Source of the DNA: a virus
Length of the DNA stretch: 40,171 nt
Direction: 5' to 3' (one strand)
Virus record (IMG/VR): IMGVR_UViG_3300043099_000255
Location: 1-40,171 of that record
Part shown: piece by piece, positions 2,820 through 37,684 of the stretch
Numbering within the stretch: the first letter of the stretch is position 1
How the letters are laid out: every line of letters begins with the position of its first letter
The notes under the pieces: model-generated
What the model was told of the DNA's origin: nothing
The model's input: the letters and a program-made list of their open reading frames with translations, nothing else
Database searches by the model: none
Program-made: the position numbers and the translations under genes

Positions 2820-3068
2820 CTAGGCGGCCTTGCGCCGGGGCATCTGCACAATCTTATCCATATCCGGCAAGGAGGCCACCAGGTCCCCAAAGCTGGTGCC
2901 GACCACCGGCTGAGCTGAGATGCCGTTGTCCTTGAGGAACTGACGCAAGATGTTCAGCTCAGCGGTGCTGATGGACCCATCGTCGAGCCTGGACCGCAGG
3001 TGGAGCGCCAGGTCGGTGTGGAGGTTCGACAGGACCCGTGAGGCCTCGGATTCGTTAGGGCGACCCAT
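2820..3068 (-). CDS. Terminase small subunit (gp18-like DNA maturase A)
   Basis: 82 aa, about the length of T7 gp18. An N-terminal helical segment (SEASRVLSNLHTDLALHLRS) is followed by the phrase TAELNILRQFLKDNGI, which is characteristic of small terminase subunits in T7-like phages (cf. 'aaRQFLKdN'). The protein ends with a short Asp-rich stretch and basic tail (LPDMDKIVQMPRRKAA). It is the first gene of the leftward operon, directly downstream of the control region. In T7 it lies just before gp19; here several virion genes separate it from the large subunit at 37707. The role would be recognition of concatemer DNA for packaging. Identification rests on motif and length only. Confidence 0.7.
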   Translation of the reverse strand: MGRPNESEASRVLSNLHTDLALHLRSRLDDGSISTAELNILRQFLKDNGISAQPVVGTSFGDLVASLPDMDKIVQMPRRKAA

Positions 3069-6849: not shown

Positions 6850-7186
6850 CTTTCGTGCGCTGTGTGCTGAGTTGTTGAGCGAAATACAGGCTTTGCGGCG
6901 AGCAGTGGCCGATGAAGTGGGGTGTTCATCACCCGAGGCTTCGGTCATGGCCCGCGCCCGCGCCGCCCTGGCCCAGCCCGAGCCGCAGGGGCCGACGGAT
7001 GCGGAGATTGCAGAGTGCCTGATTGACGCCGGAGTTGACACCATGGAAGGCGAATCAGACGGCACTGGCCGCACTTATTGGGAAGGGTGGCACGATCAGG
7101 TCATGGCCGGAGTTCGCGCCATCCTCGCCCGATGGGGCCGCCCCGCCATCGGGCCGGTGCCTGGGGTGGAGGGTGCCGATGGCTGA
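6842..7186 (+). CDS. Cyanophage-type hypothetical protein with 'QPEPQGPTDAEI' linker
   Basis: 114 aa. An N-terminal helix (TDFRALCAELLSEIQALRRA) is followed by ARAALAQPEPQGPTDAEIAE, a linker phrase I recognise from many hypothetical proteins of Synechococcus-type phages. The C-terminal portion is rich in Trp, Gly and Arg. It overlaps the previous gene by 8 bases and the next by 8. Function unknown. Confidence 0.6.
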   Translation: MTDFRALCAELLSEIQALRRAVADEVGCSSPEASVMARARAALAQPEPQGPTDAEIAECLIDAGVDTMEGESDGTGRTYWEGWHDQVMAGVRAILARWGRPAIGPVPGVEGADG

Positions 7187-7436
7187 ACCAACAACCAACA
7201 ACCAGCCCCCCGTCGTCGTCGACTCGATGGAGACGCTTCCGCTCCGGATGCTGGATGCGTTCTGGTGCTTTGCCAACAGCTCGATGCCCATCGGCAGCCC
7301 TGACCGCATGCGGGAAGTGTTGCGCCTGTTGGCCAAGGAGGTAGAGACATGGGCCCCGCCGTACTCGGAACACAAGATCTGCCACTTGGCAGTGACCGAG
7401 GTGGCTCAACGCTTGAAAGCGGAGGCCGACCAATGA
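7179..7436 (+). CDS. Early protein of unknown function (85 aa)
   Basis: ATG 7179 inside the end of the previous gene. Begins MAEPTTNNQPPVVVDSMETL, with a helical core (MREVLRLLAKEVETW, then EVAQRLKAEADQ). No membrane segment or catalytic motif. Stop and next start overlap as ATGA (7433-7436). Unknown function. Confidence 0.55.
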   Translation: MAEPTTNNQPPVVVDSMETLPLRMLDAFWCFANSSMPIGSPDRMREVLRLLAKEVETWAPPYSEHKICHLAVTEVAQRLKAEADQ

Positions 7437-7714
7437 GCAGCAAGGGGTGGGGCAGCCAGGCTTCCGTCGAAAACTTCCTTCTGCATATGCGCGATGACAG
7501 CGGAGCCATCATTGGTGAAGGATTAAGTCGAACATCGAACCCAAATGCCAAGCTTTATGAAATAGTTGTCACGTTCAGCGGCATGCGTCCAATGCGCGAG
7601 CGGATCCGTGCCACCTCAAAGGCCGAGGCTGCAAAGTTTGCGGCCAACAGGTATCCAACTCACACCAAGATCACTATCATCACCAACAACAATGGCAAAC
7701 GATCTGCTTCCTGA
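7433..7714 (+). CDS. Early protein of unknown function (93 aa)
   Basis: Small basic alpha/beta protein. Two beta strands (KLYEIVVTFSG and KITIITNNNG) flank the helix RIRATSKAEAAKFAANRYP, an arrangement reminiscent of small RNA- or DNA-binding folds, but no named family is recognised. ATG 7433 was chosen for its ATGA overlap with the preceding stop. Its 3' end overlaps the next gene by 23 bases. Confidence 0.55.
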   Translation: MSSKGWGSQASVENFLLHMRDDSGAIIGEGLSRTSNPNAKLYEIVVTFSGMRPMRERIRATSKAEAAKFAANRYPTHTKITIITNNNGKRSAS

Positions 7715-8015
7715 AAACGTTCACTCGGTTGACTACATGCCAACCAAGTCACAGTCCAACAACAAGGGCAACGTCCTTTGGTACGCCAAAGGTTATGGCT
7801 GGTACCTAGGTTACTTTCAGCTCCCGTATATGGATGGCACTTCTCACTGGACGTACGCACCCGATGACCTGAACCTCGAACCGGACACCGTCGACACCGT
7901 GCGCAATGCGTTCGAGGCCTGGATTAAAACATTCCCGGAAGGTGCGTTTGACACTGCATCAACGGCGTTGTTGAAGTTGGGCTACGTGGGTGGCTGGAAG
8001 CGTGGCAACGCTTGA
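7692..8015 (+). CDS. Protein of unknown function upstream of the RNA polymerase (107 aa)
   Basis: ATG 7692 (MANDLLPENVHSVDYMP). Aromatic-rich centre (WYAKGYGWYLGYFQLPYMDG), then an acidic helix (DTVDTVRNAFEAWIKTFP). No recognised motif. Its last 26 bases overlap the RNA polymerase gene, so it is probably the last early gene and coupled to polymerase translation. Confidence 0.55.
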   Translation: MANDLLPENVHSVDYMPTKSQSNNKGNVLWYAKGYGWYLGYFQLPYMDGTSHWTYAPDDLNLEPDTVDTVRNAFEAWIKTFPEGAFDTASTALLKLGYVGGWKRGNA

Positions 8016-10392
8016 GGACCAGCTTGCCCTTGAGCGTGAGATGTTGCAGATCGGCGCTGATGCGTTCGTTTCCCGAATGAACAAGCGCCGTGAGCAAGGC
8101 ATGGAGTCTCTCTCCACCCATGGCGACGTACTCGCTGCCATGGGTGTGGACCGGATCATCAGGGACTTGCGCAAGCACCGCCACGCGATGCGTGATGGAC
8201 GTGCTGGCCGTGGCTACGCCCACATGGGCCCGCTGCTGCAGCTGGCGCCCCACAAGATCGCAGCGGTGGCCATGCGTGTGGTGATTGATCAGCTGACTCA
8301 AGCCCCCAAGTTCCAGGCCCTGGCCTACGCCTTGGCTGAACGGCTGTGGCTTGAGACCATGCTGGCCCGGGCATCCGAGTACGAACTGAAGTCCCACCAA
8401 CGGGTGCGTCGTCGGTTCGCGCACAAGCGGGCTGATGCCATGCGCATGAAGAACTCGGAGATCTGGACCCCTCAAGAGAAGCTCAGTGTCGGTGTGTTCC
8501 TTGTCCACCTGGTCGAATCGCACACCGGCTTGATCGAGGTGTACCAGGAGCGCGGGGCCATGCGCACGGTGAAACGTGTGCGGGCCACCGATGCAGCGCT
8601 TGAGTGGGTTCGCAACGCCGAGGAGCAGCAACGCTTGCTGTGTCCCTTTGCGTTGCCCACCATCGTTCCGCCCCGGGATTGGTCAGACCCATTGACCGGG
8701 GGTTACTGGACCGAAGGGTTGCCTGGCAACACGTTGTTCAAGGACAACGGGGACCTGATCGCAGCTCAGTCTTCTGAGTTCGATGCGTTCCTGGTGGCCG
8801 CCAACATCCAGCAGGGTGTGGCCTGGCGGGTCAACGGTTGGATGTTGGACCAGGTCAGCCATGCGTGGGACAAGAGCCTGCCCATTGGTGGCCTGCTGCC
8901 CCGTGCTGGGCATGTGATCCCGCCGTACCCCAAGCACCTGGCCGACGACGACGAGGGCGTTACAGCCTGGCGACACACGGCCCGGATGCTCCATGACCGC
9001 AACGATCGAGAGGCCGGCAAGAGGTTCACGGCAGCCAAACAGCTGTGGGTGGCACGTCGTCTTCGCGATGAGCCAGCGCTGTACTTCCCGGTGCAGTGTG
9101 ACTTCAGGGGCAGGTACTACTACCGGCCCCCGTACCTGCAGCCCCAGGCCAACGACATCGGTCGGTCGCTCCTGTCGTTTGCCAACGGCACACCGATCAA
9201 CACCGAGGCCGAAGCTGATTGGCTCCGTATCCACGGTGCCAACACGTACGGGCACAACAAGCTGACCTGGGCTGGCCGTGTGGCCTGGGTGCATGAGCAC
9301 CAGCTGGAGATCGAAGCCGCTGGCCGGGAGCCTTGGTGCAACCAAGATTTCTGGGCTGGGGCCAAGGACCCTTGGCAGTTCCTTGCGTTTTGCCGGGCGT
9401 ACCAACAGTTCAGCCAACACGGCTACGGCTGGGTGTGCCACCACCCTGTCGTCCTCGACTGCACGTGCTCTGGGATCCAGCATTACTCGGCACTCCTGAG
9501 ATCCGAGGAGATGGCAGCCCTTGTGAATCTCACGCCAAGCGAGGCTCCCCGGGACATCTATGCCGTCGTGCTCCAGCGGGTGCTCGACTTGGTGCGGGCC
9601 GATGCTGCGGCCGGCGACGAACACGCAACCCGGTGGCTGCAGTTGTCCCCTGATCGCACGTTGGCCAAGCCTGTGGTCATGACGATCCCGTACTCGGCCA
9701 CCCGCCAGGCCGTGGTCAACTTCTGCCACGGGTGGGCCAACGACCGAGCCGGGGAAGTGTTGGGCCGGGACAACTGGTGCTTCAAACGCGGAGCCATGTC
9801 GACCCACCACTACATGGCCACGATCCTGTACCGGGAGACGTCGGCCCTGATTGCACCAGCCAAGGCAGCGATGTCTTGGTTCCGCAAGGTGGGCAAAGCG
9901 GCCGGCAAGCTGGGCCTAGCCCTGCGTTGGACCTCACCATCAGGGGTCCCCGTCATCCAGGAATACTGGGACTACAGCGGGGTCCGGGTTCGCCTGTACC
10001 ACCTGTCGCCGGTGCCGATGGATCTGTTGACGAACCACCAGCCGACCCGGCTGAACCACAAGCGGATGGGCAACGGGTTGAGCCCTAACGTGATCCATAG
10101 CCTTGATGCCAGCCACATGGCTGCCGTCACCATCGAGGCCCATGCCGCTGGGGTGCGCAACCTCGGCGGGATCCATGACTGTTTCGCAACGACGCCAGCA
10201 GAGATGGCCACACTTCGGACCACAATCCGCAGTACCTTTGCTGGCATGTACACCAGGGACTGGTTCACGCCCATCGCTGATGAGCTTGTGTCCCAGTTGC
10301 CACCGGATGTACAGGCCAAACTCCCGCCGCGGCCAAGCCTTGGCGGGTTCGACCCCCAACTCGTAAACAACGCTGATTACTTCGTCACATGA
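7990..10392 (+). CDS. T7-type single-subunit DNA-directed RNA polymerase
   Basis: 800 aa, somewhat shorter than T7 gp1 (883). It transcribes the middle and late phage genes. Catalytic signatures are intact. D490 lies in VVLDCTCSGIQHYS, equivalent to T7 D537. K560 and Y568 lie in LAKPVVMTIPYSATRQ, equivalent to K631 and Y639 with the same spacing. H729-D730 lie in GGIHDCFATTP, equivalent to H811-D812, preceded by SPNVIHSLDASHM. The N-terminus (TLEDQLALEREMLQIGADAF) matches the T7 family start 'LerelaiErerleiGaeaf'. The start used is GTG 7990; GTG 8002 (MATLEDQ) fits the family equally well. Stop overlaps the SSB start (ATGA at 10389). It should recognise the phage promoters in the control region. 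Confidence 0.97.
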   Translation: MAGSVATLEDQLALEREMLQIGADAFVSRMNKRREQGMESLSTHGDVLAAMGVDRIIRDLRKHRHAMRDGRAGRGYAHMGPLLQLAPHKIAAVAMRVVIDQLTQAPKFQALAYALAERLWLETMLARASEYELKSHQRVRRRFAHKRADAMRMKNSEIWTPQEKLSVGVFLVHLVESHTGLIEVYQERGAMRTVKRVRATDAALEWVRNAEEQQRLLCPFALPTIVPPRDWSDPLTGGYWTEGLPGNTLFKDNGDLIAAQSSEFDAFLVAANIQQGVAWRVNGWMLDQVSHAWDKSLPIGGLLPRAGHVIPPYPKHLADDDEGVTAWRHTARMLHDRNDREAGKRFTAAKQLWVARRLRDEPALYFPVQCDFRGRYYYRPPYLQPQANDIGRSLLSFANGTPINTEAEADWLRIHGANTYGHNKLTWAGRVAWVHEHQLEIEAAGREPWCNQDFWAGAKDPWQFLAFCRAYQQFSQHGYGWVCHHPVVLDCTCSGIQHYSALLRSEEMAALVNLTPSEAPRDIYAVVLQRVLDLVRADAAAGDEHATRWLQLSPDRTLAKPVVMTIPYSATRQAVVNFCHGWANDRAGEVLGRDNWCFKRGAMSTHHYMATILYRETSALIAPAKAAMSWFRKVGKAAGKLGLALRWTSPSGVPVIQEYWDYSGVRVRLYHLSPVPMDLLTNHQPTRLNHKRMGNGLSPNVIHSLDASHMAAVTIEAHAAGVRNLGGIHDCFATTPAEMATLRTTIRSTFAGMYTRDWFTPIADELVSQLPPDVQAKLPPRPSLGGFDPQLVNNADYFVT

Positions 10393-11030
10393 ACAACTTC
10401 CAGTACGTCGACAAGCTGCGCCTGACCACACCGAAGGCCACGCTCAAGTACCCCAAGTTGATTGAACCTGAAACCAAGTTCAGTCCTGAGGGTCACTACA
10501 AAGTGACGGCCATCATCCCAGCGGAAAAGGCGGGGCACATGGCCGACCAGCTCGACGCCTTGTTCGAGGCCCATAAAGCCAGTCTCAAGGCTCAGGCCCC
10601 GAGCCAGAAGTTCAAGGCCGTCGACCCGAGCTTCGGGTACGAGGAGATCGACGGCAAGCCTTGTTTCACGGTGAGCGTGAAGATGAAAGCCAAGGGCATG
10701 GACCGTGATGGCCGGGCATGGACCGCATCACCGGCCCTGTTCGATGCCACTGGTGCTCCGGTCAAGCACCGTGAATCCCTGCGTAGCATGTGGTCCGGCA
10801 CCACCGGTCGTGTGTCGTTTGAGGCGTGTCCGTTCTTTCAGCCTGCGATTGGGGCCGGCATCACGCTGCGCCTGAAGGCCGTGCAAATCATCGACCTGGT
10901 GGAATCCGGTGGATCAGCCGACAGCTACGGATTTCAAGAGGAAGCCGGAGGATGGGCGTCCAGCGAGACGGAGGCAAGCGTCCCCTTTGACGCGACGGGA
11001 GCGGCAACAGACGAGGGGTTTGACTTCTAG
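10389..11030 (+). CDS. Single-stranded DNA-binding protein (gp2.5-like)
   Basis: 213 aa, close to T7 gp2.5 (232). N-terminal KLRLTTPKATLKYPKLIEPE and the OB-fold-type beta strands (GHYKVTAIIPAEKA, FTVSVKMKAKG, GITLRLKAVQIIDLV) fit the T7-like SSB family. The C-terminus is acidic and ends in an aromatic residue (ATDEGFDF), the conserved protein-docking tail of gp2.5. It coats ssDNA at the fork and contacts other replication proteins. It is coupled to the RNA polymerase by a 4-base overlap. The docking tail is retained even though the phage DNA polymerase it would bind in T7 is not found. Confidence 0.92.
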   Translation: MNNFQYVDKLRLTTPKATLKYPKLIEPETKFSPEGHYKVTAIIPAEKAGHMADQLDALFEAHKASLKAQAPSQKFKAVDPSFGYEEIDGKPCFTVSVKMKAKGMDRDGRAWTASPALFDATGAPVKHRESLRSMWSGTTGRVSFEACPFFQPAIGAGITLRLKAVQIIDLVESGGSADSYGFQEEAGGWASSETEASVPFDATGAATDEGFDF

Positions 11031-11403
11031 TCGGTACCGCTCCAGGTTTGAGGCATCAGTTGCCGCCAGTCTCAAGGCCCGTGGCCTGCAGTTCGGGTAC
11101 GAGGTGCAGGCCCTTGTCTACACGATCTCTGCGGTTTACACCCCGGACTTCGTGTTGCCGAACGGTGTCATCGTGGAGACCAAGGGGCTGTTCGACTCAG
11201 AGGACAGGCGCAAGATGGTGGCCGTCAAAGCACAGCATCCAGACCTGGACATCAGGCTCTGCTTCATGAAGGCAGACGCCAAGCTGAGCCGGGCACCCCG
11301 GTCCCTCACGTACTGGCAGTGGGCAGAGAGGCACGGGTTCCTCTGGTGCGAAGGAAACATTCCAACCGCATGGGCCGATGCCATCCAGGTTCCTAAAGCA
11401 TGA
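10909..11403 (+). CDS. Endonuclease I, Holliday-junction resolvase (gp3-like)
   Basis: PD-(D/E)xK nuclease of the T7 gp3 family. The core YTPDFVLPNGVIVETKG aligns with T7 'YTPDFLLPNGIFVETKG', giving catalytic D80, E90 and K92, with E48 in YRSRFEAS equivalent to T7 E20. It resolves branched DNA and degrades host DNA. The longest frame starts at GTG 10909, inside the SSB gene, giving 164 aa and an unusual basic N-terminal extension (ARRRQASPLTRRERQQ). TTG 11019 would give about 127 aa and less overlap. The start is therefore uncertain, while the domain is clear. The 3' end overlaps the primase-helicase by 26 bases. Confidence 0.92.
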   Translation: MDQPTATDFKRKPEDGRPARRRQASPLTRRERQQTRGLTSSRYRSRFEASVAASLKARGLQFGYEVQALVYTISAVYTPDFVLPNGVIVETKGLFDSEDRRKMVAVKAQHPDLDIRLCFMKADAKLSRAPRSLTYWQWAERHGFLWCEGNIPTAWADAIQVPKA

Positions 11404-12991
11404 GGCTTGCCCCGAGTGCAAGTCGAAGAACAACCTGGCCCGCTACGACGACGGTCACGCGACCTGCTTCGGATGCGGGTACCAGGAGCAACCAAAGAAA
11501 ACAGAAAAGACAGAGCCCCGCATGGAGCCATTGCCACCACCAGTCACCCCGGTCCTTGAGTTTGTCGAGGCCCGGGCTTTGCCCAAGCGGGCCATAGCGG
11601 AGGAGACCTGCGCCTTGTTCGGCTACGGGTTCTCCACGCACAACGGACGCCCCGTCCAGGTGGCGCCGTACCGCAACCAAGCGGGCAAGGTGGTGGCCCA
11701 ACACCTACGTGGTGCAGACAAGCGCTTCAGCTGGCTGGGTGACACCTCCAATCTGCAGCTCTGGGGCCAGCACCTCTGGCGCCAGAACTTTGGCAAGGAG
11801 ACAGGGCTCTTTGTCACCGTGACCGAAGGCGAGATCGACGCCATGTCGGTCAGTCAGGTGCAAGGCAACAAGTACCCGGTCGTGTCGCTGCCCAACGGGG
11901 CCCAGTCCGCGAAGAAGTACCTGGCTGCTAACGCCACCTGGCTGGGTCAGTTTGCACGGATCGTCCTGTGCTTCGACTCGGATGAGCCGGGCGTCAAGGC
12001 TGCTGCTGAGTGCGTGGCTGTCTTGCCCCTGGGCAAGGTGGCCGTGTGTCAGTTGCCCCGCAAGGACGCCAACGAGATGCTGGTGGCAGGCGAGGGAGAA
12101 GTCCTTCGTGAGTTGCTCTGGAAGGCCACGCCAACCAGGCCCGACGGGATCGTCAATGCCAACGATCTCTGGGACGAACTGATCAAGCCCAGTGCTGACT
12201 CAGCTTGTCCTTACCCCTGGCCCCAGCTGGATGCCATGACCCGTGGCTTTCGCCGTGGCGAGATGGTGACGCTGTGCGCCGGCTCAGGCGTGGGCAAGTC
12301 GAGCGTGTGCCGGGAGTGGGCCCACCACTTCCTGCGGGCTGGCTTGCGGGTGGGCTACATCGCCCTGGAGGAGAGCACCAAGCGCACCATGCAAGGCATC
12401 GTCGGCATCGAGCTGAACAAGCCCATCCACCTTGATCCCAATGCGGCCGACGAGCATCAAATCCGAAATGGCTTTGACCGTGTCTTTGGCGCTGGTCGGT
12501 GCTTTCTCTACGACCACTTTGGATCCATGGATCCAGATCACCTCATCGGCAAGATCCGTTACCTGGCTGATGCAGAAAGCGTGGACGTCGTCGTCCTTGA
12601 TCACCTCACGATCGTCATCTCGGGACTGACGGACCTGGATGAGAGGCGTGCCATCGACGTGACATGCACCAAGCTGCGCCAGGTGGTGGAGCAGACGGGC
12701 ATTGGCCTGGTGCTGGTGTCACACCTCAAGCGACCAGAAGGCCGCGGCCATGAGGAGGGGGCCCAGACCAGCCTGGGTCACCTGCGTGGCAGCCATGCCA
12801 TTGCGCAGCTCTCCGACATGGTCATCGGCTGCGAGAGGAACCAGCAAGGCGACACCGCTGAACGCAACGAACTGCAACTGCGGGTGCTGAAGAACCGGTT
12901 CTCTGGTTCGACGGGTCCCTGCGACAAGTTGCTTTACGACCAAGACACCGGCCGCCTTGTCGTGCCCATGTCCCATTACTTCGGAACCTAA
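11378..12991 (+). CDS. Primase-helicase (gp4-like)
   Basis: 537 aa, close to T7 gp4A (566). Domains in order: N-terminal Cys4 zinc ribbon (CPEC ... CFGC, residues about 10-35); TOPRIM primase (EGEIDAMS from E150 and the later LCFDSDEPG Asp motif); DnaB/RecA-type helicase with Walker A GSGVGKSS (302-309), Walker B region VDVVVLDHLTIV and an arginine-containing C-terminal motif (LRVLKNRFSGSTG). It unwinds DNA and lays down RNA primers. In T7 the acidic C-terminal tail of gp4 recruits DNA polymerase gp5; here the protein ends RLVVPMSHYFGT with no acidic tail. It is followed by the exonuclease with 3 bases between. Confidence 0.96.
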   Translation: MPSRFLKHEACPECKSKNNLARYDDGHATCFGCGYQEQPKKTEKTEPRMEPLPPPVTPVLEFVEARALPKRAIAEETCALFGYGFSTHNGRPVQVAPYRNQAGKVVAQHLRGADKRFSWLGDTSNLQLWGQHLWRQNFGKETGLFVTVTEGEIDAMSVSQVQGNKYPVVSLPNGAQSAKKYLAANATWLGQFARIVLCFDSDEPGVKAAAECVAVLPLGKVAVCQLPRKDANEMLVAGEGEVLRELLWKATPTRPDGIVNANDLWDELIKPSADSACPYPWPQLDAMTRGFRRGEMVTLCAGSGVGKSSVCREWAHHFLRAGLRVGYIALEESTKRTMQGIVGIELNKPIHLDPNAADEHQIRNGFDRVFGAGRCFLYDHFGSMDPDHLIGKIRYLADAESVDVVVLDHLTIVISGLTDLDERRAIDVTCTKLRQVVEQTGIGLVLVSHLKRPEGRGHEEGAQTSLGHLRGSHAIAQLSDMVIGCERNQQGDTAERNELQLRVLKNRFSGSTGPCDKLLYDQDTGRLVVPMSHYFGT

Positions 12992-12994
12992 TCC

Positions 12995-13753
12995 ATGACA
13001 CTGCTGATCGACGCTGACTGGTTGCTGTACGCGGCTTGCTCAGCCTGTGAATACGACATCCGTTGGGACGAATGGATTCACACCCTGCACCTTGAGCAGT
13101 CGGACGCCAAGAACTACATGACCCATCAGGTGGGCAAGTGGCAAGACGCCACCGGCCACAAGGACGTGGTCATGTGTCTGTCGTCGTACCCAACTTTCAG
13201 GCACCAGCTTTCCCCTGAGTACAAGGCCAACCGGGTCGGACGCCGCAAGCCCCTGGGCCTGCGGGACCTGAGGACCTGGCTTGAGTCCGAGTACGACGTC
13301 AGGTGCCACGTCAACCTGGAAGCCGACGACGTCATGGGGATCCTGATGACCAACGGGTCGTACAGGGATCCGATCATGGTCACCGCCGACAAAGACATGC
13401 GCACGATCCCGGGGCCCTTGCTGCGCATGGACCAGATGGAGATCAACGACCTAGCGGACGCCAACAGGAACTGGATGACTCAGGCCCTGGTCGGTGACAC
13501 CAGTGACAATTACCCCGGCTTGAAAGGGTTTGGCCCGGTGAAAGCAGAGAAGCTATTGGCTGAGCACAAGACCTTGCCGGCCATGTGGTCGGCCGTCGTT
13601 GACGCATACCGCAAGGGCGGCGAAACCTTTGGCGCTGCCTTGCTCAATGCCCGCATGGCTCGCATCCTGCGCTACGGGGACTACGACTTCACCTCCGGTA
13701 CCGTCGAGCTGTGGGACCCGGACCGTGACCCCGCCATGAAGACCGATGGATGA
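12995..13753 (+). CDS. 5'-3' exonuclease (gp6-like, FEN family)
   Basis: 252 aa FEN/5'-nuclease-type protein. Metal-binding acidic motifs are LLIDADWLLY at the N-terminus, LEADDVMGIL and VTADKDMRTI in the middle, and GDTSDNYPGLKGFGPVKAEK, which combines the last acidic cluster with the helix-hairpin-helix. FRHQLSPEYKANR is the typical arch-region substrate motif. It removes RNA primers and degrades host DNA. No polymerase domain is fused, and no polymerase gene lies on either side, although T7-like phages place DNA polymerase between helicase and exonuclease. Its stop lies inside the next gene's start. Confidence 0.93.
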   Translation: MTLLIDADWLLYAACSACEYDIRWDEWIHTLHLEQSDAKNYMTHQVGKWQDATGHKDVVMCLSSYPTFRHQLSPEYKANRVGRRKPLGLRDLRTWLESEYDVRCHVNLEADDVMGILMTNGSYRDPIMVTADKDMRTIPGPLLRMDQMEINDLADANRNWMTQALVGDTSDNYPGLKGFGPVKAEKLLAEHKTLPAMWSAVVDAYRKGGETFGAALLNARMARILRYGDYDFTSGTVELWDPDRDPAMKTDG

Positions 13754-13925
13754 CGCACTCTGGCCACCAATCGACGAGGCCCTGTTGAAACAGCTGGACG
13801 AGGTTTACCCCGAAGCCTGTCCTGATCCAACTGCATCTGATCGAGAGATCTGGATGGCAGTGGGCTGCCGCCAGGTGGTACGCATGCTACGGGCCGTTTA
13901 TCTTGAACAGCAAAACGAGGATTGA
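13746..13925 (+). CDS. Small conserved T7-like protein before the head genes (59 aa)
   Basis: ATG 13746 overlaps the exonuclease stop by 8 bases. The protein begins MDDALWPPIDEALLKQLDE and contains TASDREIWMAVGCRQVVRML, resembling the 'DREIWfxaGqrsVvefL' phrase of small proteins found at this position in T7-like and cyanobacterial podoviruses. Acidic and helical, with no catalytic motif. Likely conserved but of unknown role; its position between the replication and virion modules is typical. Confidence 0.65.
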   Translation: MDDALWPPIDEALLKQLDEVYPEACPDPTASDREIWMAVGCRQVVRMLRAVYLEQQNED

Positions 13926-13928
13926 TCC

Positions 13929-14249
13929 ATGTGCTTTGGTGGCGGGGGGCAAGCGCCTGACAACAGCGCTCAGATCCAAATGCAGGAGGAGCAGATGAAG
14001 CTCCAGCGGGAGCAAATGGCCATGCAGCAGGAACAGGCCGCTGCCCAGCAGGCCCAGTACCGGGAGCAGCTGGCTATCAGCAAGGCTCCCCCGCCACCTG
14101 CTCCGAACGAAGGGGCCATGGCTGCAGCATCAGCGATTGAAACCATGGACCAAGCCACTGCGCAGTCCATGCGGGCCGGCACCGGTCGTCGCAAGCTTCG
14201 GACTGACTTGCCGCAGATGACGACACTCGCCATACCAGGAGCAGCTTGA
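13929..14249 (+). CDS. Small virion/tail-assembly protein (gp7.3-like position)
   Basis: 106 aa. Starts MCFGGGG, followed by a long Gln-rich coiled coil (residues about 14-48, repeats of QMQEEQMKLQREQMAMQQEQ type), a Pro-rich linker and a C-terminal basic RRKLRTDLP then LAIPGAA. T7 gp7.3, encoded just before the portal, is a small virion protein needed for tail assembly and adsorption; length and place agree. Assignment is by synteny. The portal ATG at 14249 overlaps its last base. Confidence 0.65.
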   Translation: MCFGGGGQAPDNSAQIQMQEEQMKLQREQMAMQQEQAAAQQAQYREQLAISKAPPPPAPNEGAMAAASAIETMDQATAQSMRAGTGRRKLRTDLPQMTTLAIPGAA

Positions 14250-16006
14250 TGGAACTCAACCTGACCAGCAGCGTTGACCGCCAGCCCAAACCGTACGGGG
14301 AGGACGGTGGCACGGCTGCGGCCAGGTACGGCCAGCTGCAAATCAACCGGGACCCGTACCTGCAACGCGCTCGGGATTGCAGCAAGGTCACGATTCCTGG
14401 GTTGATCCCGGATGCCGGGCAAGGGGACAGGGGTCGGTTGAAGACCCCGTACCAAAGCCTTGGCGCAAGGGGTGTGAACTATCTCGCCAGCAAGCTGCTG
14501 ATTACCTTGTTCCCACCGAACTCCAGTTTCTTCAAGCTTGAGATCGACGACCTCGCGCTACGGGTTGCGGAGCAAGGGCCAGAGATCAAGACGGAACTGG
14601 ACACCGCCTTGGTCCAGGTCGAGCGAGCTGGCATGTCTGCGTTTGAGGTGGCCAATGGCCGGGCCTCGATGCACGAAGCCTTCAAGCACCTGCTGGTCGG
14701 CGGCAACGTGCTCCTGTACGTGGCGGAAGACGGCATCAAGGTGATTCACCTGAATCGCTTTGTCGTGTGTCGTGACCCGATGGGGTCCGTCACCGAGATC
14801 GTGGTCGAGGAGGAGGTGTACCCCGACGCTTTGCCCGTGGGGCTGTACGACGACCTGGATGAAGAGGACGCATACGAGTCCGGTACCACGTCGAAGACCA
14901 TCAAGCTCTACACCCACGTCGAGTACGAGGAAGGCAGGGTTCATTGGTATCAAGAAGCCAAGGGCAAAGAGATCCCTGGGTCCCATGGCATGTGCGACGG
15001 CGACGTGAATCCCTGGATCCCCCTTCGGTTCAACCGGGTGGACAGTGAGGAGTACGGCCGCTCCTACATCGAGGAGTACTACGGGGACCTGTTGGCCCTG
15101 GAGAGCCTGTATCAAGCCATCATCGAGGGGGCAGCCGCTGCCGCCAAGGTTCTGTTCCTTGTCAATCCCAACGGCACCACCAGGCCCCGCACCCTGGCCA
15201 ACGCTGAGAACGGAGCCATCGTCCAAGGCAACGCTGCTGACGTCACCGTCATCCAGACTCAGAAGGCCCAGGACCTGAACATCGCCAACAGCACCATTGA
15301 ACGGATTGAGGCCCGACTGCAGTTTGCGTTTCTCCTGAACACCGCGATCCAACGACGCGGGGAAAGAGTGACAGCGGAAGAGATCCGCTACATGAGCCAG
15401 GAGCTAGAGGCCGGCATCGGTGGCCTGTACAGCATCCTTACTCAAGAGCTGCAGCTGCCCCTGGTGCGTCGGTTGCTGCATGTGCTGCGGAAACAGCGCA
15501 AGCTTGCGGCTTTCCCGAAGGGCCAGGGCGGTGTGCCACTGGTCAACCCCAGACCAGTGACAGGCCTGGAAGCCATCGGTCGTGGTGATGACCGGAACAA
15601 GTTGATCCAGTTCATCACCACTGCCACCCAGACCCTGGGCCCCGAGGTGATTGCCAAGTTCGTGAACGTCGATGAAGCCCTGCGGCGTCTTGCTGCCAGC
15701 GAATCCATTGACACCACCAACCTGGTCAAGTCCAGGGACCAGCTGCAGCAAGAGGCAGCTGCCGCGCAAGCCGAACAACAACAAGCGGCTCAGCGTGAAA
15801 TGCTGATGACTGGCCTCAAGTCATCAGCCATGGCGCAAGTCGCCAACAACTACACCCAAGAAGGAGCACCCTATGGCCCGCAGTTCGCAGACGGCACAGA
15901 CCCAGCCCAGCCAGGAGCCCAGCCCAACGCCCTCCCCAGCCCCCCAAGAGCGCCCGGTATCCCTAGTGGGCCCACCGGCCCAGGTGCCGGAGCGCCTCCC
16001 GTATGA
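14249..16006 (+). CDS. Head-tail connector (portal) protein, gp8-like
   Basis: 585 aa, near T7 gp8 (536). It forms the 12-subunit portal through which DNA is packaged and ejected. Recognisable T7-portal features are the N-terminal RARDCSKVTIPGLIPD, then YQSLGARGVNYLASKLLITL and PPNSSFFKLEID. Later come FVVCRDPMGSVTEIVVEEEV and the C-terminal RRGERVTAEEIRYMSQELE. The tail end is Gln/Ala-rich and then Pro/Gly-rich. The upstream TTG at 14246 is in frame, but ATG 14249 is preferred. The last 134 bases overlap the gene starting at 15873 in another frame. Confidence 0.95.
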   Translation: MELNLTSSVDRQPKPYGEDGGTAAARYGQLQINRDPYLQRARDCSKVTIPGLIPDAGQGDRGRLKTPYQSLGARGVNYLASKLLITLFPPNSSFFKLEIDDLALRVAEQGPEIKTELDTALVQVERAGMSAFEVANGRASMHEAFKHLLVGGNVLLYVAEDGIKVIHLNRFVVCRDPMGSVTEIVVEEEVYPDALPVGLYDDLDEEDAYESGTTSKTIKLYTHVEYEEGRVHWYQEAKGKEIPGSHGMCDGDVNPWIPLRFNRVDSEEYGRSYIEEYYGDLLALESLYQAIIEGAAAAAKVLFLVNPNGTTRPRTLANAENGAIVQGNAADVTVIQTQKAQDLNIANSTIERIEARLQFAFLLNTAIQRRGERVTAEEIRYMSQELEAGIGGLYSILTQELQLPLVRRLLHVLRKQRKLAAFPKGQGGVPLVNPRPVTGLEAIGRGDDRNKLIQFITTATQTLGPEVIAKFVNVDEALRRLAASESIDTTNLVKSRDQLQQEAAAAQAEQQQAAQREMLMTGLKSSAMAQVANNYTQEGAPYGPQFADGTDPAQPGAQPNALPSPPRAPGIPSGPTGPGAGAPPV

Positions 16007-22615: not shown

Positions 22616-25360
22616 ATGGCACGTCTATCAACCGGTCAGTCCTACGGCGAAGCCGGCCGCGCTACAGCCGCACAGCTCTTGGGTGGCATCCCTACCGACG
22701 CGTCTGGCGGCGCCTTGGCTCAAGGCTCGATCAATGCCCCGTCCCTGCAGCCACGGGCGACACCTGTCGACACGTTCCAACGGGCTGGGGCACCGACGCT
22801 GGGTGGGCCTCCAAAGATCTTTGCGCCCCCGGATCTGCCGAATCCCGGTCAGGATCTGGCGAACCTGTCCAAGGCCCTGGGTGGGTTCAGCTCCACCCTG
22901 CAGAACTTTGGCGAGACATGGCTCGCCAACAAGCAGCAGGAGGACAAGAGGCAAGAGGCAGCCACTGGGGCCCTTGTTGGCCAAGCCAGCAGGTTTGGTC
23001 CAGCCCGTGGCATTGCCGATCTGGCTGCCAACCTGGAGAAAGCTGCGGCCCTGGGGAACCCAGATGCAGCCCGCATGCTGCAGGTTGTCCGAGAGAAACA
23101 GAACTCCTCGGTTGGCAGGTATTGGCTGGAGCGCTCCGTTGAACAGAACGCAATCCAGAACGCAGCACTGAGCCTGCCGGACCGGATAGCCAACACCTCC
23201 ACGATCAAGGTGAATGGCAAGGACGTTGAACTCAACACCCTGTCGTCCGACGACCCCAGGTACTTGCAGTACCGGGACGAGCAACTGTTTGGCGGCGCAC
23301 AGATGTCGCCCCAGGGCTACGCCAAGAACCAAGGCATCATTATTCAGGCGCAGCTCCAGGCCGACCAGGTCCAGCGCAAGAAATACAACACGGCCGAGGC
23401 TGGCAGGTTGACAGCCCAGGTCGCGGTTAACAGGCAAAGCATTGCCGCCGATTACATCTCCGTTCGCGGCAAAGGTAACGACGTCTATGCCATTCAGTAC
23501 GTCGGCCGGGCCCTGCAACAGGAGATTGATTCGATCAGGATCCTTGGCGTGCCGGAGGAAACAAAGACAGAGCTGATCAACAAATACCTTGAAGGGTTTG
23601 CCGCCGACGTCGTTTCAGCTGCTAGGTCCCAAGGCTTTGCCATTGTCGACATGGATGCAGTGCTAAAGCCTGCCCTCCGCTCGGTGATGATTGGCCCCGT
23701 TGATCAACGGGTCAAGGCAGACGGCACCCCGAACCAAGCCTTGCGCCTGTACAACACCCTGGGCGGCGAAGCGTTTCTGGACCAGGTGGCGGCCAGAGCC
23801 AATGCTGCCCAGATCCAAGACAACACCCAGCAAGCCCAAATGGCTGGCATCCAGGAGCAGCAGGCCTACGACGCCCGACTGGCCGCAGCCTTGCCGGAGG
23901 GGCGTCGTTCTGATCCGGCTGCCATCAAGAGCTTCTTCCAGGCCGAGCGGAATCGGGCGGCTGTTGAACCTGACGGCATCAAGCGGGCAGCCATGTTCTC
24001 GCAGCTTGATGCGTCCGAGCGTCAGTTGACTGAGACTTTTGTGAAGCCAGTCCAGGAGCGATTGGCCCTTCACTACACCCAGCAGTTGGACGCGACCCGG
24101 GACGACGAAGCTGCTCGCAACAGGTTGGCGGCCCAGGTAAAGGCCGACGCTGAGGCCGGTCGGCTCTCCAGCGCATCCGCCGTCAGCATCATGGGCACGT
24201 TGGCCGCCCAGGGCAACAAGCAGGTGCAGTCCTACCGCAAGGAAATCAACAAGCGCGTTGACGACATACTCAAGCCCTTTGAGGCGTATGCAACAAGCCC
24301 TGGGTCTTATGGAGGCCAAGCCGTTGTCGGCTTTGAGTACCAATCCATGTACAACGCCCGAAGCATGGCGAAGCGCAGGCTTGAGGAGGCTGTGGACCAA
24401 GCCATCAGGGACAAGAAGGACCCGACCGAGGCCATGAACAAGGTCCAGCTCAACAACAACTTTGGCCTTCGCAAGCGTGAGGACGTCGGTGGCACCCAGG
24501 CCCCCACCTACGACAACACCACCGAGTTGATTCGGAAGAACACCGGCAACTGGAGCCGCGGCACTATTGCCCCCCGGGAAGCCAACCAACTGCGGTCCAG
24601 TGCCAAGGTCCGTCCGTTGATGAAGCTTGAGTCCTGGGACCGCGACGTCACGGCCTTGCTCAACGGCAATGCCAGCCAGAACTTCAAGACCTTGATTAAG
24701 ACGTTGACGACGGGGACCGGTGGTCAGAAGCCGTCTGAGGTGATCTTGAATCAATTCAAATTGCTTGGCATTGAGGTGCCGGAAAACGAGCGCCTGAAGA
24801 TCCAGGCCCTGGACGGCCAAGAGATCTCAAGGGCAACACCTGCACGTCGTCAGAGTCCCCAGCAAAACGGAGCGCTGGCTGGCGTCCAGATTGTTGGTGG
24901 GGCCCTGGGCAACCTGTTGGTGCCACCGGCTGCAGCTGCACCAACCGTCGCGGCCACAATGCGGCCAGTGGTTGCTGCCAGGACCCAGTCGACCGTCACT
25001 CCACAGGCCAGGGTCGACGGTTACATGAAGCGGCTGGCCTACATCGAAACCAGAATCCGCAACATCCCCAACGCCAAAGGGTCGCCTGGCCGCGGCTATT
25101 TCCAAGCGTTCCCGGATTTCGCCAAGGAAGCCATTGCGGCATCGGGTGGCATTGACCCCCGGGACCCCGATTACAACAGGTCCGCAAAAGCGTCAGCTGC
25201 TTGGATTCGCACTTACAACAAGAAGGCTTACGCGGCGATCCAGGCCGGTCGTTACGACGAAGCAGACCGGCTCCTGCGCAACACGTGGCCGTCGTTGCCA
25301 GGCGGAAGCCAGGCCCAGAAGCCAGAGGTGCAAAAGGCTGCCCGCAAATATCTTCGTTGA
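22616..25360 (+). CDS. Internal core/ejection protein (gp15-like) with C-terminal lambda-R-like transglycosylase
   Basis: 914 aa versus 747 in T7 gp15. Residues 1-780 are Gln/Ala-rich helices typical of the ejection channel protein. From about residue 800 a separate domain follows. RLAYIETRI places E811 like the catalytic Glu of lambda endolysin R, followed by GRGYFQAF in the position of R's 'GRYQLL', ASAAWIRTYNKKAYAAIQAG, and TWPSLPGGSQAQ (W891), matching R's 'IWASLPGAGYGQ'. This is a GH104-type lytic transglycosylase by motif. In T7 the murein-cutting domain is on gp16; here it has moved to gp15. Cell-wall penetration during DNA entry is the likely role. Confidence 0.88.
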   Translation: MARLSTGQSYGEAGRATAAQLLGGIPTDASGGALAQGSINAPSLQPRATPVDTFQRAGAPTLGGPPKIFAPPDLPNPGQDLANLSKALGGFSSTLQNFGETWLANKQQEDKRQEAATGALVGQASRFGPARGIADLAANLEKAAALGNPDAARMLQVVREKQNSSVGRYWLERSVEQNAIQNAALSLPDRIANTSTIKVNGKDVELNTLSSDDPRYLQYRDEQLFGGAQMSPQGYAKNQGIIIQAQLQADQVQRKKYNTAEAGRLTAQVAVNRQSIAADYISVRGKGNDVYAIQYVGRALQQEIDSIRILGVPEETKTELINKYLEGFAADVVSAARSQGFAIVDMDAVLKPALRSVMIGPVDQRVKADGTPNQALRLYNTLGGEAFLDQVAARANAAQIQDNTQQAQMAGIQEQQAYDARLAAALPEGRRSDPAAIKSFFQAERNRAAVEPDGIKRAAMFSQLDASERQLTETFVKPVQERLALHYTQQLDATRDDEAARNRLAAQVKADAEAGRLSSASAVSIMGTLAAQGNKQVQSYRKEINKRVDDILKPFEAYATSPGSYGGQAVVGFEYQSMYNARSMAKRRLEEAVDQAIRDKKDPTEAMNKVQLNNNFGLRKREDVGGTQAPTYDNTTELIRKNTGNWSRGTIAPREANQLRSSAKVRPLMKLESWDRDVTALLNGNASQNFKTLIKTLTTGTGGQKPSEVILNQFKLLGIEVPENERLKIQALDGQEISRATPARRQSPQQNGALAGVQIVGGALGNLLVPPAAAAPTVAATMRPVVAARTQSTVTPQARVDGYMKRLAYIETRIRNIPNAKGSPGRGYFQAFPDFAKEAIAASGGIDPRDPDYNRSAKASAAWIRTYNKKAYAAIQAGRYDEADRLLRNTWPSLPGGSQAQKPEVQKAARKYLR

Positions 25361-25414: not shown

Positions 25415-28400
25415 ATGCCTATCCAAACGATCCGCGACCCCAAGACCGGGGAAGAGCGCCGGGTCTATGTGTCAACGGGTGGCATGGGTGCCGGGGCTCC
25501 ACCCAAACCCAAGCCCCAGCCATCGGCCGGCGGTGGATTCATGGGGACGTTGAACGACTTCAACCCCATGAAGCAGATCAGCGCCCTGGGCACTGGGGTG
25601 TCCACGTTTCTTCAGACCGGGGACCTGAACAAAAGCATTGCAGCTGCGTCGAGGGAAGCTGCGCCAACGACGGCCCTGGGTCAATCAGTCAGCCGGACCC
25701 TGGCGGCAGGCGGTCAGCGGGCTGTGGATGCAGCTCGGCTTGAGATCGACCGAGCACGTCTGGCCCGGGAGCAGATGGTAGCAGGCACGTCGGGGTGGGA
25801 CGTCAAGATCCCATCCAGGGGCCCCGGCGCCCCCAGTGCCACGCGAGTGCGGCTGCCCGAGTGGGCCAACTACGACGACATGCGCGTTGAACCCAAGAAC
25901 CCGGTCGAGGACGTCGCTGCCAGCATCATTGCGTTTGCCCCGTATTTCGCCGTTGCCCGTGGAGCCGGGGCCCCAGCACAGGCCTTGGTGCGTGGGTTGC
26001 CTGGCGTGTCCAGGGTGGCCACTGGCTTTGAAGCCGCGACTGCTGGCCTGAAAGCTGCTGGTGGCGCCAAGCGTGTTGCCGGCATCTTTGCGGAAGAAGC
26101 CGTCTCTGGTGCCATCCCCAGCGCCATTGCCACCTACTACGCCACCAAGCCCACCGACAAGACGTTGAGCGACAGCTTGGCCGAGACGGTCAAGGGCTCA
26201 GTGTTTGAGGGTGTTGTGGCCAGGGGCCTGTTGGCCGACCCGAATGACACGGTTGAGCAGGCCCGCATCAAGCAATCCATCAACGACCTGATCTGGTCGG
26301 TGCCCTTGGGCGGTGGCTTGGGCACGGGCCTTGCTGGTCTCAACAGGTTGGGGGAGGCAGGCTTCCGTGGAATTGGTGCCATGAAAGGCGCCACCAAGCG
26401 GGCGTTTGCCGATGTGATCCAGGGTGTGGTCAAGGTCGGCCAGGCTGATCAAGCCGTAAAGGATGCAACTACGGCACCGGTTGCGGCTGCCGTCGACCCG
26501 AGTGTCCCAAGTGCGGGAACTCCAGCCCCTGCTGCTGCACCAGCGCCGCGTGTCGTGTCCGGCAAGCCAGCGTTCTCGTCTGTGGCGTACTACCAGGGCC
26601 TGCGTCGTCAGCCGTTGTGGGAAAAGACCGGCGTCGAGATCCAAGGACGCCTGGAGCCCCAGGCCCCGCAGTCGCTTCCGGTTGACTCGTACACCGCCAA
26701 GCTGAACTACAGCGACGTCAGGCCTGACGCTGGCCCGCTGAACGCCAGTGGCAAGAGGTATGCACAGGCCCTGGCTGGCCAGGATCAGATTGCGATTGAG
26801 GCGACGTCGCAGAAGCTCCGGGCCACGTTCAACAACGCGGCCGCCAAGCTTGGCATCGAGCTTGGCCCCAATGCCAGCAGCCAGTCGTGGTCCATGTGGG
26901 ACATCGGCAAGCAGCTGTACATGGATGCCAACCCAGCGAAGAGCAACAAGCCGTATGTGCTTGGCAACCCGCTGACCAACATCCAGGTCCAAGCCGACAT
27001 CGTCGACCGGATGCTTGGATTTGAGATCACCAAAGGGGTTGACGTTGAGGGGAAGCGCCTGAAGTCCTGGCAGCTGACGTCGATCGGCCGCAAGGCCCGG
27101 GAAGACGCAGGCGTCGAGCTTGGCCTAATGCCGGACCCCGGCTCCCAGCGCACCATCCCGGCCCCCAGCGCACCACCGACGCCAGAAGCTGCAGCAGCGG
27201 CCCTGCAACAGGCTCAAGCCGAGCTGGTTGTAGCGACACAACGACTGCAGTCCGAGGCCGCCAAGGAGGTGGTGACTGCGCCTGAGGTTGCAGCGGTGCC
27301 CCAGGGCCAGCTGCCAGGCATGAACCAGCCGGCCTACGAGCAGGTTGCCACTATCCCGACTGGTGACGCTGCTGTTGCACCAAAGGTTTTCCAGTACAAA
27401 GCAGAGGGCCAGACGGCCACCGGCCGCAGTGGATCGCTTGCTGAGGAGAACGTCTACGACCCCCGGTACGCAGGCGTCATCAGCGTTTGGCGGGACAAGC
27501 TGGGCGAGCTTGGGCCTGTCAATCAGATCTACGTCGCAAACGGCCACAACCGGCATGAGCTTGCTGTACGCAGTGGGTTCCCGATGATCAATGTGCAGTT
27601 CATCGAGGCCGCGACAGCCGCAGAAGCCCGCGTCGTTGCAGCACTGCAGAACATCAAGGATGACAGGGGCACCGCTGTCGATGCCGGCAAGCTTCTCCGG
27701 GACACCGGCATGTCCATCGAGGACCTGCGCCTTCAGAACGTCAACCTGAACGGGAAGCTGGCCAGCGAAGGTGTGGCCCTCAGTCGCTTGCCTCAGTGGT
27801 TGTTTGACAAAGCCGCTACCGGCAGCCTGCCCACCCCCAAGGCCGTGGCTTTGGGCTCTGCCGAAGGGGTTGACGACGCAATCATCAGCGACGTCGCCAA
27901 GCAAGCAATCGCTGGCAAGTGGTCGGCCGAGAAGATTGTCCAGGCCATGCAGGAGGCCAAGTTCGCCAGCACCAGCACCGGAGGCGGTGACGCAGGTCCT
28001 GTGTTGCCTGGGTTTGAGGAGATGCTCAAGACCAGCAACGTTGTGGCCTTGATCGACATCAGGACCGCTGCGTTCAACAAGCTTTCGGGGGAGATGCGGG
28101 CCCTGACCGCTGCATCCCAGGCCAAGAACACCAGTTACCTGGAGGCCGCCGGTAACACCATCAACGTCGAAGGCAGCCAAGCCGCTCGCAAGATGGCGGC
28201 TGAAGCCGTCGCTGTATTCAACAGGGTCACCGCGTACGAAGGTCCGGTCCGCAACATCTTGAACGAGCTGGCGGCCCAGCTGCCAGAAGGGGCAGGTCGC
28301 TCCAAGGCCGCAGCGAACCTGGTGCAGTTCAATCTCCAGCGGTTGAGGGACGCAATCTCTGAGGAGATGAATGGGCCGCGGTTGCTTCAGGACGAAGCTG

Positions 28401-31400
28401 TGGCCAAGCAGATCCAGGAGCCACCGGCCCCAACTGCCGCAGCTGAACCTGCCGCCACAACCTTTGCCGACCCCCTAGAGGCTGAGAACCTGGCTGATGC
28501 CCGTGGGTTCCTGGGGCTCCCTGCGACCGCCAACGTGGCCCAGGTTGCGCGGGTGGCCAAGCAGGAGGGCTACGACGGCATTGTGTTCACCGGGGACTTT
28601 GGCCTGCCCGGTGGCAAGAGGGAGATCGACCTCAGGGCCCTGCCTGAAGTCAAGGCCCCTGAGAACGCTGGGAACCCGGTGCCGATTCAGGCCAAGCCGG
28701 TTGACGTGGCGCCAGCTACTGCCATCGAGCCACCCACCGTTTCGGATGAAGCGGTCAAAGCCCTGGAGAAGGCATATCCGTACAGGCCGTATCGCGGCCA
28801 GGGGGCAGTAGACATTGCGCAAGAAAGGCTCAACCGTGTCCAGGCTTTACTGGAAAGCACAAGGTTTGAACTTGAAGCGCTGAGGGCCAGCAAGCCCGAG
28901 CCGGGCGCAACTGGTGCCGTGGCGCGAAAAGCCCAGCTCGACTGGCAGCGCAATTTCGCCAAGTTCACTGAGCAAGAAGCGGCAGTCGTCCAAGACCTCG
29001 CAACGGCTCAGGCGGTGGTGGATCAGTTCATGAACGCCCCCACCGGTGCCATTACCCCTGGCTTCACGGCCAAGACCGGTGGCGCCAAGGACGAGAACGA
29101 AGCCATCTCCACCGCTCTGGAGCGCCAGGCGTTAGCCGAGGAGGCTGGTGACACCGAGCTGGCTGGCGAACTGGGCACTTGGCTTGGTCGTCGGGGCGTG
29201 GCGGTCCAGCCCATGGGCGACGTGGCTGCTGCGATCGAGCCCCCAACGCTGACCTTGCCCCGTGAGCTGGCAGGCCTCAAGCCCCGTTACAGCTACGGCC
29301 AGAAGCGGTTTGAGTTGACCTTTGAGACCGACCTGGACCGTGTTGCCTACACCTTGGCTGGTGACGCCACCGGCAAGCCATCCAAGTCGCACCAGAAGTA
29401 CCGGGATTGGCTGGAGTCCAACGGCCTGGACCCGGCGGAAGTTGCTGCGTACGGGGCCCGCGTCGTCAAGCCCAGCATCAAGGAGATGGCGGCCACCGCG
29501 CAGCCAGGCACCCTCCAGGTGCGGAACCAAGGCTTTGGTGGCGCTGACTTCCAGGCCGAGCTGCCCAACCTTGAGGGCTGGCGCAACGTCGAAACCGGCG
29601 TCGGTGGCACCGTTGGCGAGGGGTACACAGGTGCTACCCGCATCACCGAACGGGAAGCCAGCGAGCTGGCCCGGATTGCGTTCAACATCAGCGGTGTCAC
29701 GGATTTCAGGATCCAGGAACGGATCGAGGCCACCTATGGGCCACGCCAGGCCCGGGCGTACGGCGACATGAGTTTGGTCGGTCAGAAGGCCGAGATCGCT
29801 GGGTCGTACCGGCACGGCAAGGCCATGGCTGACGACACGATCACTGTCGCGATGACGGCTTACGGGGTGCCAAAGTCGTTCACCCAGATGATGACGACGA
29901 CGTACCACGAGTCCATGCACCGGCTCATGGAATGGTTCTTTGCATCTGCCGAGAAGCTGGTGTTGGCCAGGTCTGAGAAGGGCCTGAGAGAGATGGCAGC
30001 CTTGCTGATGGAGGACTCCCTCCAGCCCAACAAAGCCCGGGCGTACCGGGACGGCACCATCCAGATGGGCGAGGTGATCTCTGATGCGTTTGCTGCATAC
30101 ATGCGGGGCATCACCTTGCCAAAGGTTGACCTGCAGGGCTTTGCAAAGCTGAAGAATTACATCGACCAGTCGATCAACTACATCATCAGCGGCGGCAAGT
30201 ACAAGACCTGGGACGACGTGTTTGAGAAGGCTGCGCTGGGCGAGTTCCAAGGCCGTGGTGGTACCGGAGAGCCTGGTGTCCAGTTCGCCGCCGATCCCCC
30301 GGACCCCGCTGAGTTCGCCCGGCGCATTGACCAGAACCTTCAGGCCCTGGAGTCCGGGGACCTGACCCCTGAGGAAATTGCCCAAATGGGCGCCAGCGAC
30401 GTGCGTCGGATCACCAGCCGCTCGGGCAACACCCAGTACGTGCCGAACGCGCCAGACACCCTAATTGCCAGCAACAAGGCCCTAGGCGAGATGCTGACCA
30501 GCAGGGCCCAGCAGACCGGCATCGAGAGCTACAGCCAACCAGCGGTCGTCAAGGCCGCCATGGACCAGCTGGACGCCGATGGGTGGGCCGTTGAGTCAAC
30601 AGTGACCCGGCTTGAGGCCGCCCGCCGCGGTGACCCCAAGTCTCAACAGGACCTGGTGGCTCTCGCTGCCAACCTGATCCACCGGGACCACATCGCCGCC
30701 CAGAACGGCATGACCGCGATTGAGTGGCAGTCCGCCGTGGACGAGGCTGATCGTGCTGCGTCGATGCAACGGTTGTGGTCTGGCCTTGAGGACCAGCACC
30801 GCCTCGACACCGCTTTGATGACGGCCACCCGCAAGGACGGCCAGCGGTTGAGCGTGATGCAGATCAAGTACGACTTCGACCCGACGCACAGGCAGGTGCC
30901 AGCCGGGACCCCCCTGTACCACGGCACGACGGAAGCCAATGCCCAGTCGATCGTCGACAACGGGTTCCAAGCTTCTGGCCCCAACAGCAATTTGCTGGGC
31001 AGCGGTGTGTATTTCGCCAATGACCCGCGTTACGCAGGGGCCTACGGCGAGGCCGCTGCAGCTGGCGACCTGCCCAGCGACGTGCGGATCCTTGACTTGG
31101 TGGCGATGGACAAGCGCATTGCCGACCTGGTGCAGGAACTGAACCTCGGCCCCCTTGAGCGGTTTGAGGAGAACCTGTACATGACTGGAGCCCAGAAGGC
31201 CGCAGTCCGCGATTGGGCCGTGGGCCAGGGCTACTCCGGCATCCGGTTCAACCCGGACTTTGAGCTGGGCGAAGGTGCCCCAGAGACCGTCATCTTCGAC
31301 ACCAACGTCGCCAACCGCATCGTCGGGTCCAAGGCGGCTGTGGAACCCGAGATGCCAGCAACAGCTGAGTCGATGGGCACCGACATCGAGAACGAGATCG

Positions 31401-37494: not shown

Positions 37495-37684
37495 TTGCGC
37501 TGGCGAGAGGGGTCTTGGGAAAGATTTGGACGTTGTCCACCTTCCACGGGATACGTTCCCAGACATCGCAGTACGTGGCAATGTCCCAAGCCATTTCTTC
37601 GTTTTCTGCAACGACGATGGTCTGAAAAGAGCCCAGCTCCCTGGTGCCCCCGTACCCGATGAACTCGCCGGGGATCCGGATCAC
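37463..37684 (-). CDS. Small conserved protein between terminase and endolysin (73 aa)
   Basis: Start taken as GTG 37684 (MIRIPGEFIGYGG). The annotated-length frame to 37951 lies within terminase and is not needed. The sequence IRIPGEFIGYGGTRELGSFQ, then VVAENEEMAWDIATYCDVWE and VQIFPKTPLASANV, looks like a compact alpha/beta protein. I associate this pattern with a small gene near terminase in other phages but know no function. It begins 22 bases after the terminase stop. Confidence 0.6.
   Translation of the reverse strand: MIRIPGEFIGYGGTRELGSFQTIVVAENEEMAWDIATYCDVWERIPWKVDNVQIFPKTPLASANVGYSSRRRS

Follow-up and report, generated by a model that had tools for sequence, protein, structure and literature searches.

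The isolation of the P-SCSP phages by Cai et al. 2022, who reported the missing DNA polymerase gene and named the group MPP-C (PMC9860041), posed the question of how a T7-like phage replicates its genome without gp5. For the replication of these phages, the host enzymes Pol I and Pol III as well as a divergent polymerase of the phage itself were proposed (PMC9860041), and the polymerase absence as a phenomenon is already known and not new. The same question is raised by IMGVR_UViG_3300043099_000255, a phage record of 40,171 bases with a GC content of 61%, which was analysed over its full length (referred to as the window). New here are a wider clade at approximately 60% GC and the loss of the helicase tail. 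The window most probably (rough probability 0.8) represents a polymerase-less T7-like clade in which the phage would open and prime its DNA, while a host polymerase, likely Pol III, would extend the primers.

Layout of the record and the helicase-exonuclease junction

In the window, a single-subunit RNA polymerase precedes a gp2.5/gp3/gp4/gp6 module and T7-type head-tail genes, which places the phage in the Autographiviridae. No family-A DNA polymerase separates gp4 from gp6 in the window; this gene is a usual but not a strictly defining trait of the family, and the P-SCSP records are classed there without it. The gene order is RNA polymerase, ssDNA-binding protein (SSB), endonuclease I, helicase-primase, exonuclease, portal, scaffold, capsid and tail tubes. 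Downstream of the tail tubes follow gp13/gp14-like proteins, two large proteins in internal-virion positions and a tail fibre, while the terminase lies on the minus strand. The following features were considered:

2820-3068, minus strand: small terminase subunit, near one contig end
5973-6587, plus strand: early ORF, C-terminal residues ~114-201 matching DUF6378 and phrog_17775/16943; its true start probably lies further in
7990-10392, plus strand: T7-type single-subunit RNA polymerase, 800 aa (PF00940 1.5e-77; phrog_414 3e-183)
10389-11030, plus strand: gp2.5-like SSB, C-terminus ...DEGFDF (phrog_112 3e-26)
10909-11403, plus strand: endonuclease I, T7 gp3-like resolvase (PF05367 2.8e-35)
11378-12991, plus strand: T7 gp4-like helicase-primase, ending ...VVPMSHYFGT (phrog_239 4.7e-181)
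12992-12994: 3-bp helicase-exonuclease junction, the site of gp5 in polymerase-encoding relatives
12995-13753, plus strand: T7 gp6-like 5'-3' exonuclease, 252 aa (phrog_107 1e-61; PF02739, PF01367)
13746-13925, plus strand: conserved small ORF of 59 aa (phrog_4970, function unknown), also present in polymerase-encoding relatives
14246-16006, plus strand: portal, T7 gp8-like, first of the head genes (PF12236 3e-82)
22616-25360: ORF of 914 aa in the gp15 position, without Pfam or PHROG match
25415-33898: protein of 2827 aa in the gp16 (internal virion protein) position, residues 594-814 matching phrog_21 (portal-type proteins)
36925-37611, minus strand: endolysin (phrog_28234 3e-54)
37707-39479, minus strand: large terminase subunit, near the other contig end

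Apart from the polymerase, the T7-like replication module is complete, as the first-pass annotation had stated, with RNA polymerase, SSB, endonuclease I, helicase-primase and exonuclease intact. The helicase-primase stop codon TAA ends at 12991 and is followed by TCC and by the exonuclease ATG at 12995, which agrees with the three-base gap described there. The nuclease behind this gap, noted as a stand-alone 5' nuclease, is indeed present with 252 aa, but it is an ordinary T7 gp6-type exonuclease (phrog_107). The head genes do not follow it directly, as had been assumed, since the 59-aa ORF and an ORF of 106 aa precede the portal gene.

The missing gene could originate from an assembly deletion, or the polymerase could be encoded beyond the contig, and the short overlap of the window ends, with 29 exact bases before a slip of 3 bases, would be in line with this. 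The 28-mer spanning the junction is, however, identical in five other, independent IMG/VR contigs, and since the same junction sequence occurs in five other assemblies, it does not result from an assembly deletion. Furthermore, G001, a relative of 39.9 kb that is collinear with the window from 7164 to 14591 (7.4 kb) at 98% identity, runs uninterrupted across the region of the window ends, with 1.8 kb compared to 3.1 kb in the window and divergent tail genes. The gene is also missing from the complete isolate genomes P-SCSP1 and P-SCSP2. Altogether, an artefact of this kind is given hardly any probability, and the earlier statement that the gene is unlikely to lie outside the window holds true. 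The circle, described before as closed, is supported by the 29-base overlap and the read-through in G001, but due to the slip it is not perfect. As a separate observation, the contig ends are flanked by the two terminase subunits, which enclose tail-like genes; this arrangement fits a circular (terminally repeated) genome.

Search for a DNA polymerase

In a six-frame Pfam search, no match to DNA_pol_A, DNA_pol_B or DNA_pol3_alpha was obtained in the window, while the control genomes were matched; DNA_pol_B_2 likewise gave no match in the window, but none in its control either. When a polymerase profile was applied to 33 records, none of the 26 polymerase-less relatives was matched, compared to all 7 polymerase-encoding T7-like controls. 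An in-house HMM built from 103 T7-like polymerases was run with filters off against the six-frame segments of 190 sources. At a threshold of E<=1, neither the window nor a single polymerase-less relative produced a match, whereas the two planted positive controls reached E<1e-200. Polymerase fossils were also not found by HMM in the helicase-exonuclease slot of the relatives. With positive controls for DNA_pol_A, DNA_pol_B, DNA_pol3_alpha and the in-house HMM, these results confirm the initial reading of a genome without a detectable DNA polymerase gene.

Profile searches could miss a phage polymerase that is present but too divergent for known profiles, an option also left open for MPP-C (PMC9860041), and the 914-aa ORF without Pfam or PHROG match could be such a candidate. 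Yet this ORF and the 2827-aa protein hold the gp15 and gp16 positions and show a weak conservation throughout the clade, unlike a replicase; for the 914-aa ORF, 22-80% was determined across the clade and no counterpart was found in P-SCSP2. Since the large conserved ORFs of the window could each be assigned by profile or synteny, and no further unassigned clade-conserved ORF of at least 300 aa was observed, no conserved protein remains as a candidate for an unrecognised polymerase. A divergent polymerase is thus considered improbable.

The single-subunit RNA polymerase, which belongs to the same fold superfamily as the family-A DNA polymerases and is present throughout, might also moonlight as replicase. 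In T7 RNA polymerase, Y639 and H784 select ribonucleotides. The equivalent Tyr and His are kept in P-SCSP1, P-SCSP2 and polymerase-encoding relatives as well as in the window, where both catalytic Asp are conserved in addition. As the ribonucleotide-selecting residues are retained, a function of this enzyme as DNA replicase is regarded as very improbable.

The polymerase-less clade and its known relatives

When 352 helicase loci, taken from annotated phages and five viral-contig scans, were compared, the interval between helicase and exonuclease proved bimodal: polymerase-less loci comprise at most 1342 bp and polymerase-encoding loci at least 1982 bp, with none in between. All 173 short-interval loci are without a DNA polymerase gene. 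In helicase trees of non-redundant representatives, rooted either on T7 or at midpoint, the polymerase-less tips form one clade (support 1.0) with no polymerase-encoding tip within, and the exonuclease tree concurs (0.999). A comparison with related genomes had been proposed at the outset, and the answer is that the loss is clade-wide. Since all polymerase-less representatives belong to it, the trees point to a single loss of the gene in the ancestor of the clade; a second, independent loss was not found in seven viral-contig scans.

The window is monophyletic with P-SCSP1 and P-SCSP2 in both the helicase and the exonuclease tree, and within the clade it belongs to a branch with a GC content of 57-64% (members checked), whose sister branch contains the low-GC P-SCSP phages. 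The window hence extends the clade past the marine low-GC Prochlorococcus phages to phages of approximately 60% GC, and surveys based on DNA polymerase as marker miss these members too. A host search in prokaryote genomes yielded no close relative, only distant helicases in alphaproteobacterial MAGs.

The best annotated matches for helicase and exonuclease were the Prochlorococcus phages P-SCSP1 and P-SCSP2 and an uncultured Jalkavirus fragment, in all of which the exonuclease lies directly downstream of the helicase. MPP-C (P-SCSP1a-u and P-SCSP2, OM416763-OM416780) and the window share the missing DNA polymerase gene, the adjoining helicase-primase and exonuclease, the lack of psbA, a genome of similar size, long internal virion proteins and a common helicase/exonuclease clade. 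The identity to the window amounts to 52-58% for the helicase and 45-50% for the exonuclease, while the GC content differs clearly (34-39% in MPP-C compared to 61%). Endonuclease I, present in the window, is annotated in P-SCSP1 only. psbA, the one metabolic gene covered and also a possible hint to the host, was absent from 30 relatives, and two polymerase-encoding cyanophages searched alongside were also without it. The published MPP-C isolates infect Prochlorococcus MED4. MPP-C sensu stricto is characterised by infection of marine picocyanobacteria, and the window is grouped with the MPP-C kind by its sequence. Jalkavirus S08C159 (uncultured phage MedDCM-OCT-S08-C159, GU943031) resembles the window's clade in that its helicase overlaps the exonuclease with no polymerase between, but unlike the window it is a 10-kb Mediterranean fragment that groups with P-SCSP2.

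Compared to the replisome of Escherichia phage T7 (gp4, gp5, gp2.5, gp6), the window shows the same gene order with orthologous RNA polymerase, SSB, endonuclease I, helicase-primase and exonuclease, but lacks gp5 and the acidic, Phe-ending helicase tail. The next closest helicases (45-50%) originate from the marine Autographiviridae Roseobacter phage CRP-125, Pelagibacter phage HTVC120P and Synechococcus phage P60. These have the module in common with the window, but comprise a polymerase between helicase and exonuclease and an acidic helicase tail, and they encode nucleotide-metabolism genes such as RNR, joined in some of them by MazG or ThyX.

While the window and others show 3 bp or an overlap between helicase and exonuclease, this slot measures 27-1342 bp in many close relatives (among L009-L082) and accommodates small genes of various kinds, among them one for a zinc-ribbon protein and, in L072, a ThyX-like ORF (read by eye). 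It is a variable cargo slot. As home of a recruiter gene it was rejected, because its contents are varied small cargo ORFs.

Helicase and SSB tails and the predicted hand-off to a host polymerase

In T7, the acidic tail of gp4 and its terminal Phe are needed for the coupling of gp4 and gp5 (PMC12593628; PMC12230644; for the tail see also PMC5997990). A terminal aromatic residue was found in none of the 173 polymerase-less helicases, compared to 127 of 163 in polymerase-encoding relatives, and the median net acidity of the tail (90% representatives) was 0 compared to +5. The helicases of the polymerase-less clade comprise 7-13 residues after the TGRL motif, and the C-terminus of the window helicase carries no acidic, Phe-terminated polymerase-docking tail. 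The difference is not absolute: the short tail of the P-SCSP2 sub-clade retains a mild acidity and contains an internal Phe (VYEDFI, VYENDFADL), and part of the polymerase-encoding helicases are also without the terminal aromatic, most of these tails having kept their acidity. The helicase-primase itself keeps the zinc cysteines, the Toprim acids, the Walker lysine and the equivalents of H465 and R522.

The SSB of T7 bears a tail similar to that of gp4. In the polymerase-less clade, the terminal Phe of the SSB was retained in 143 of 143 loci examined. This contrast between helicase tail and SSB tail was found neither in the MPP-C paper (PMC9860041) nor in literature searches, and the clade-wide loss of the polymerase-docking tail was apparently unreported until now. 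It supports the different replisome hand-off postulated in the first-pass annotation. Since the polymerase-less loci are monophyletic, tail loss and gene loss count as one evolutionary event and not as replicated evidence of coupling. The tail loss may be adaptive, or it may be the by-product of one deletion reaching the 3' end of gp4.

Based on these findings, the family-A DNA polymerase gene would have disappeared from the gp4-gp6 interval in the ancestor, and one deletion that removed gp5 together with the 3' end of gp4 would account for both losses. Transcripts of the phage RNA polymerase and the phage primase would provide primers, the phage hexameric helicase would open the fork, and the phage SSB would coat the single-stranded DNA. 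The primers would then be extended by a host polymerase, most likely the Pol III holoenzyme and less likely Pol I. The Pol III holoenzyme is the only abundant processive replicase available. It is favoured over Pol I for two reasons: copying a genome of 40 kb requires processivity, and the tail for docking a family-A enzyme has been lost. The use of a host polymerase, already suggested from the first reading of this DNA, is the most economical explanation of this genuine, clade-wide absence; the proposal as such, however, had already been published for the relatives (PMC9860041).

A scan of helicase, SSB, exonuclease, 59-aa protein and endonuclease I for sliding-clamp-binding motifs revealed none that is conserved, so that the sequence gives no positive pointer to Pol III. 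Likewise, no gene conserved only in polymerase-less genomes stood out as putative recruiter, and the contact to the host polymerase would consequently sit in the helicase-primase or the SSB themselves. An ancestral T7-type replisome that was rewired by loss of the polymerase and the helicase docking tail, but kept the SSB tail and passes its primers from the hexameric helicase-primase to host Pol III via a contact yet to be found, is proposed tentatively, at slightly less than even odds.

Recruitment of host DNA polymerase I in place of Pol III, an option proposed for MPP-C (PMC9860041), appears rather unlikely, although it deserves consideration. Like gp5, Pol I is a family-A enzyme, and since helicase, primase and 5' exonuclease are encoded by the phage, only the polymerase would have to be supplied. 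On the other hand, the window helicase lacks the very tail by which the T7 helicase docks its family-A polymerase, and Pol I is chiefly a repair enzyme of low processivity (PMC9860041). If the rewired replisome handing over to Pol III is true, it would represent a hybrid phage-host fork in a widespread phage group. The clade-wide combination of a lost helicase tail and a kept SSB tail offers a concrete molecular handle, by which the mechanism is now testable.

Aside from replication, the catalytic domain of PARP/ADP-ribosyltransferases (PF00644) was weakly matched by residues ~1830-1881 of the 2827-aa protein, with 25.6 bits at a cut-off of 26.7 bits. This stretch sits in a very large protein of the internal-virion type, which would enter the bacterial host by ejection.
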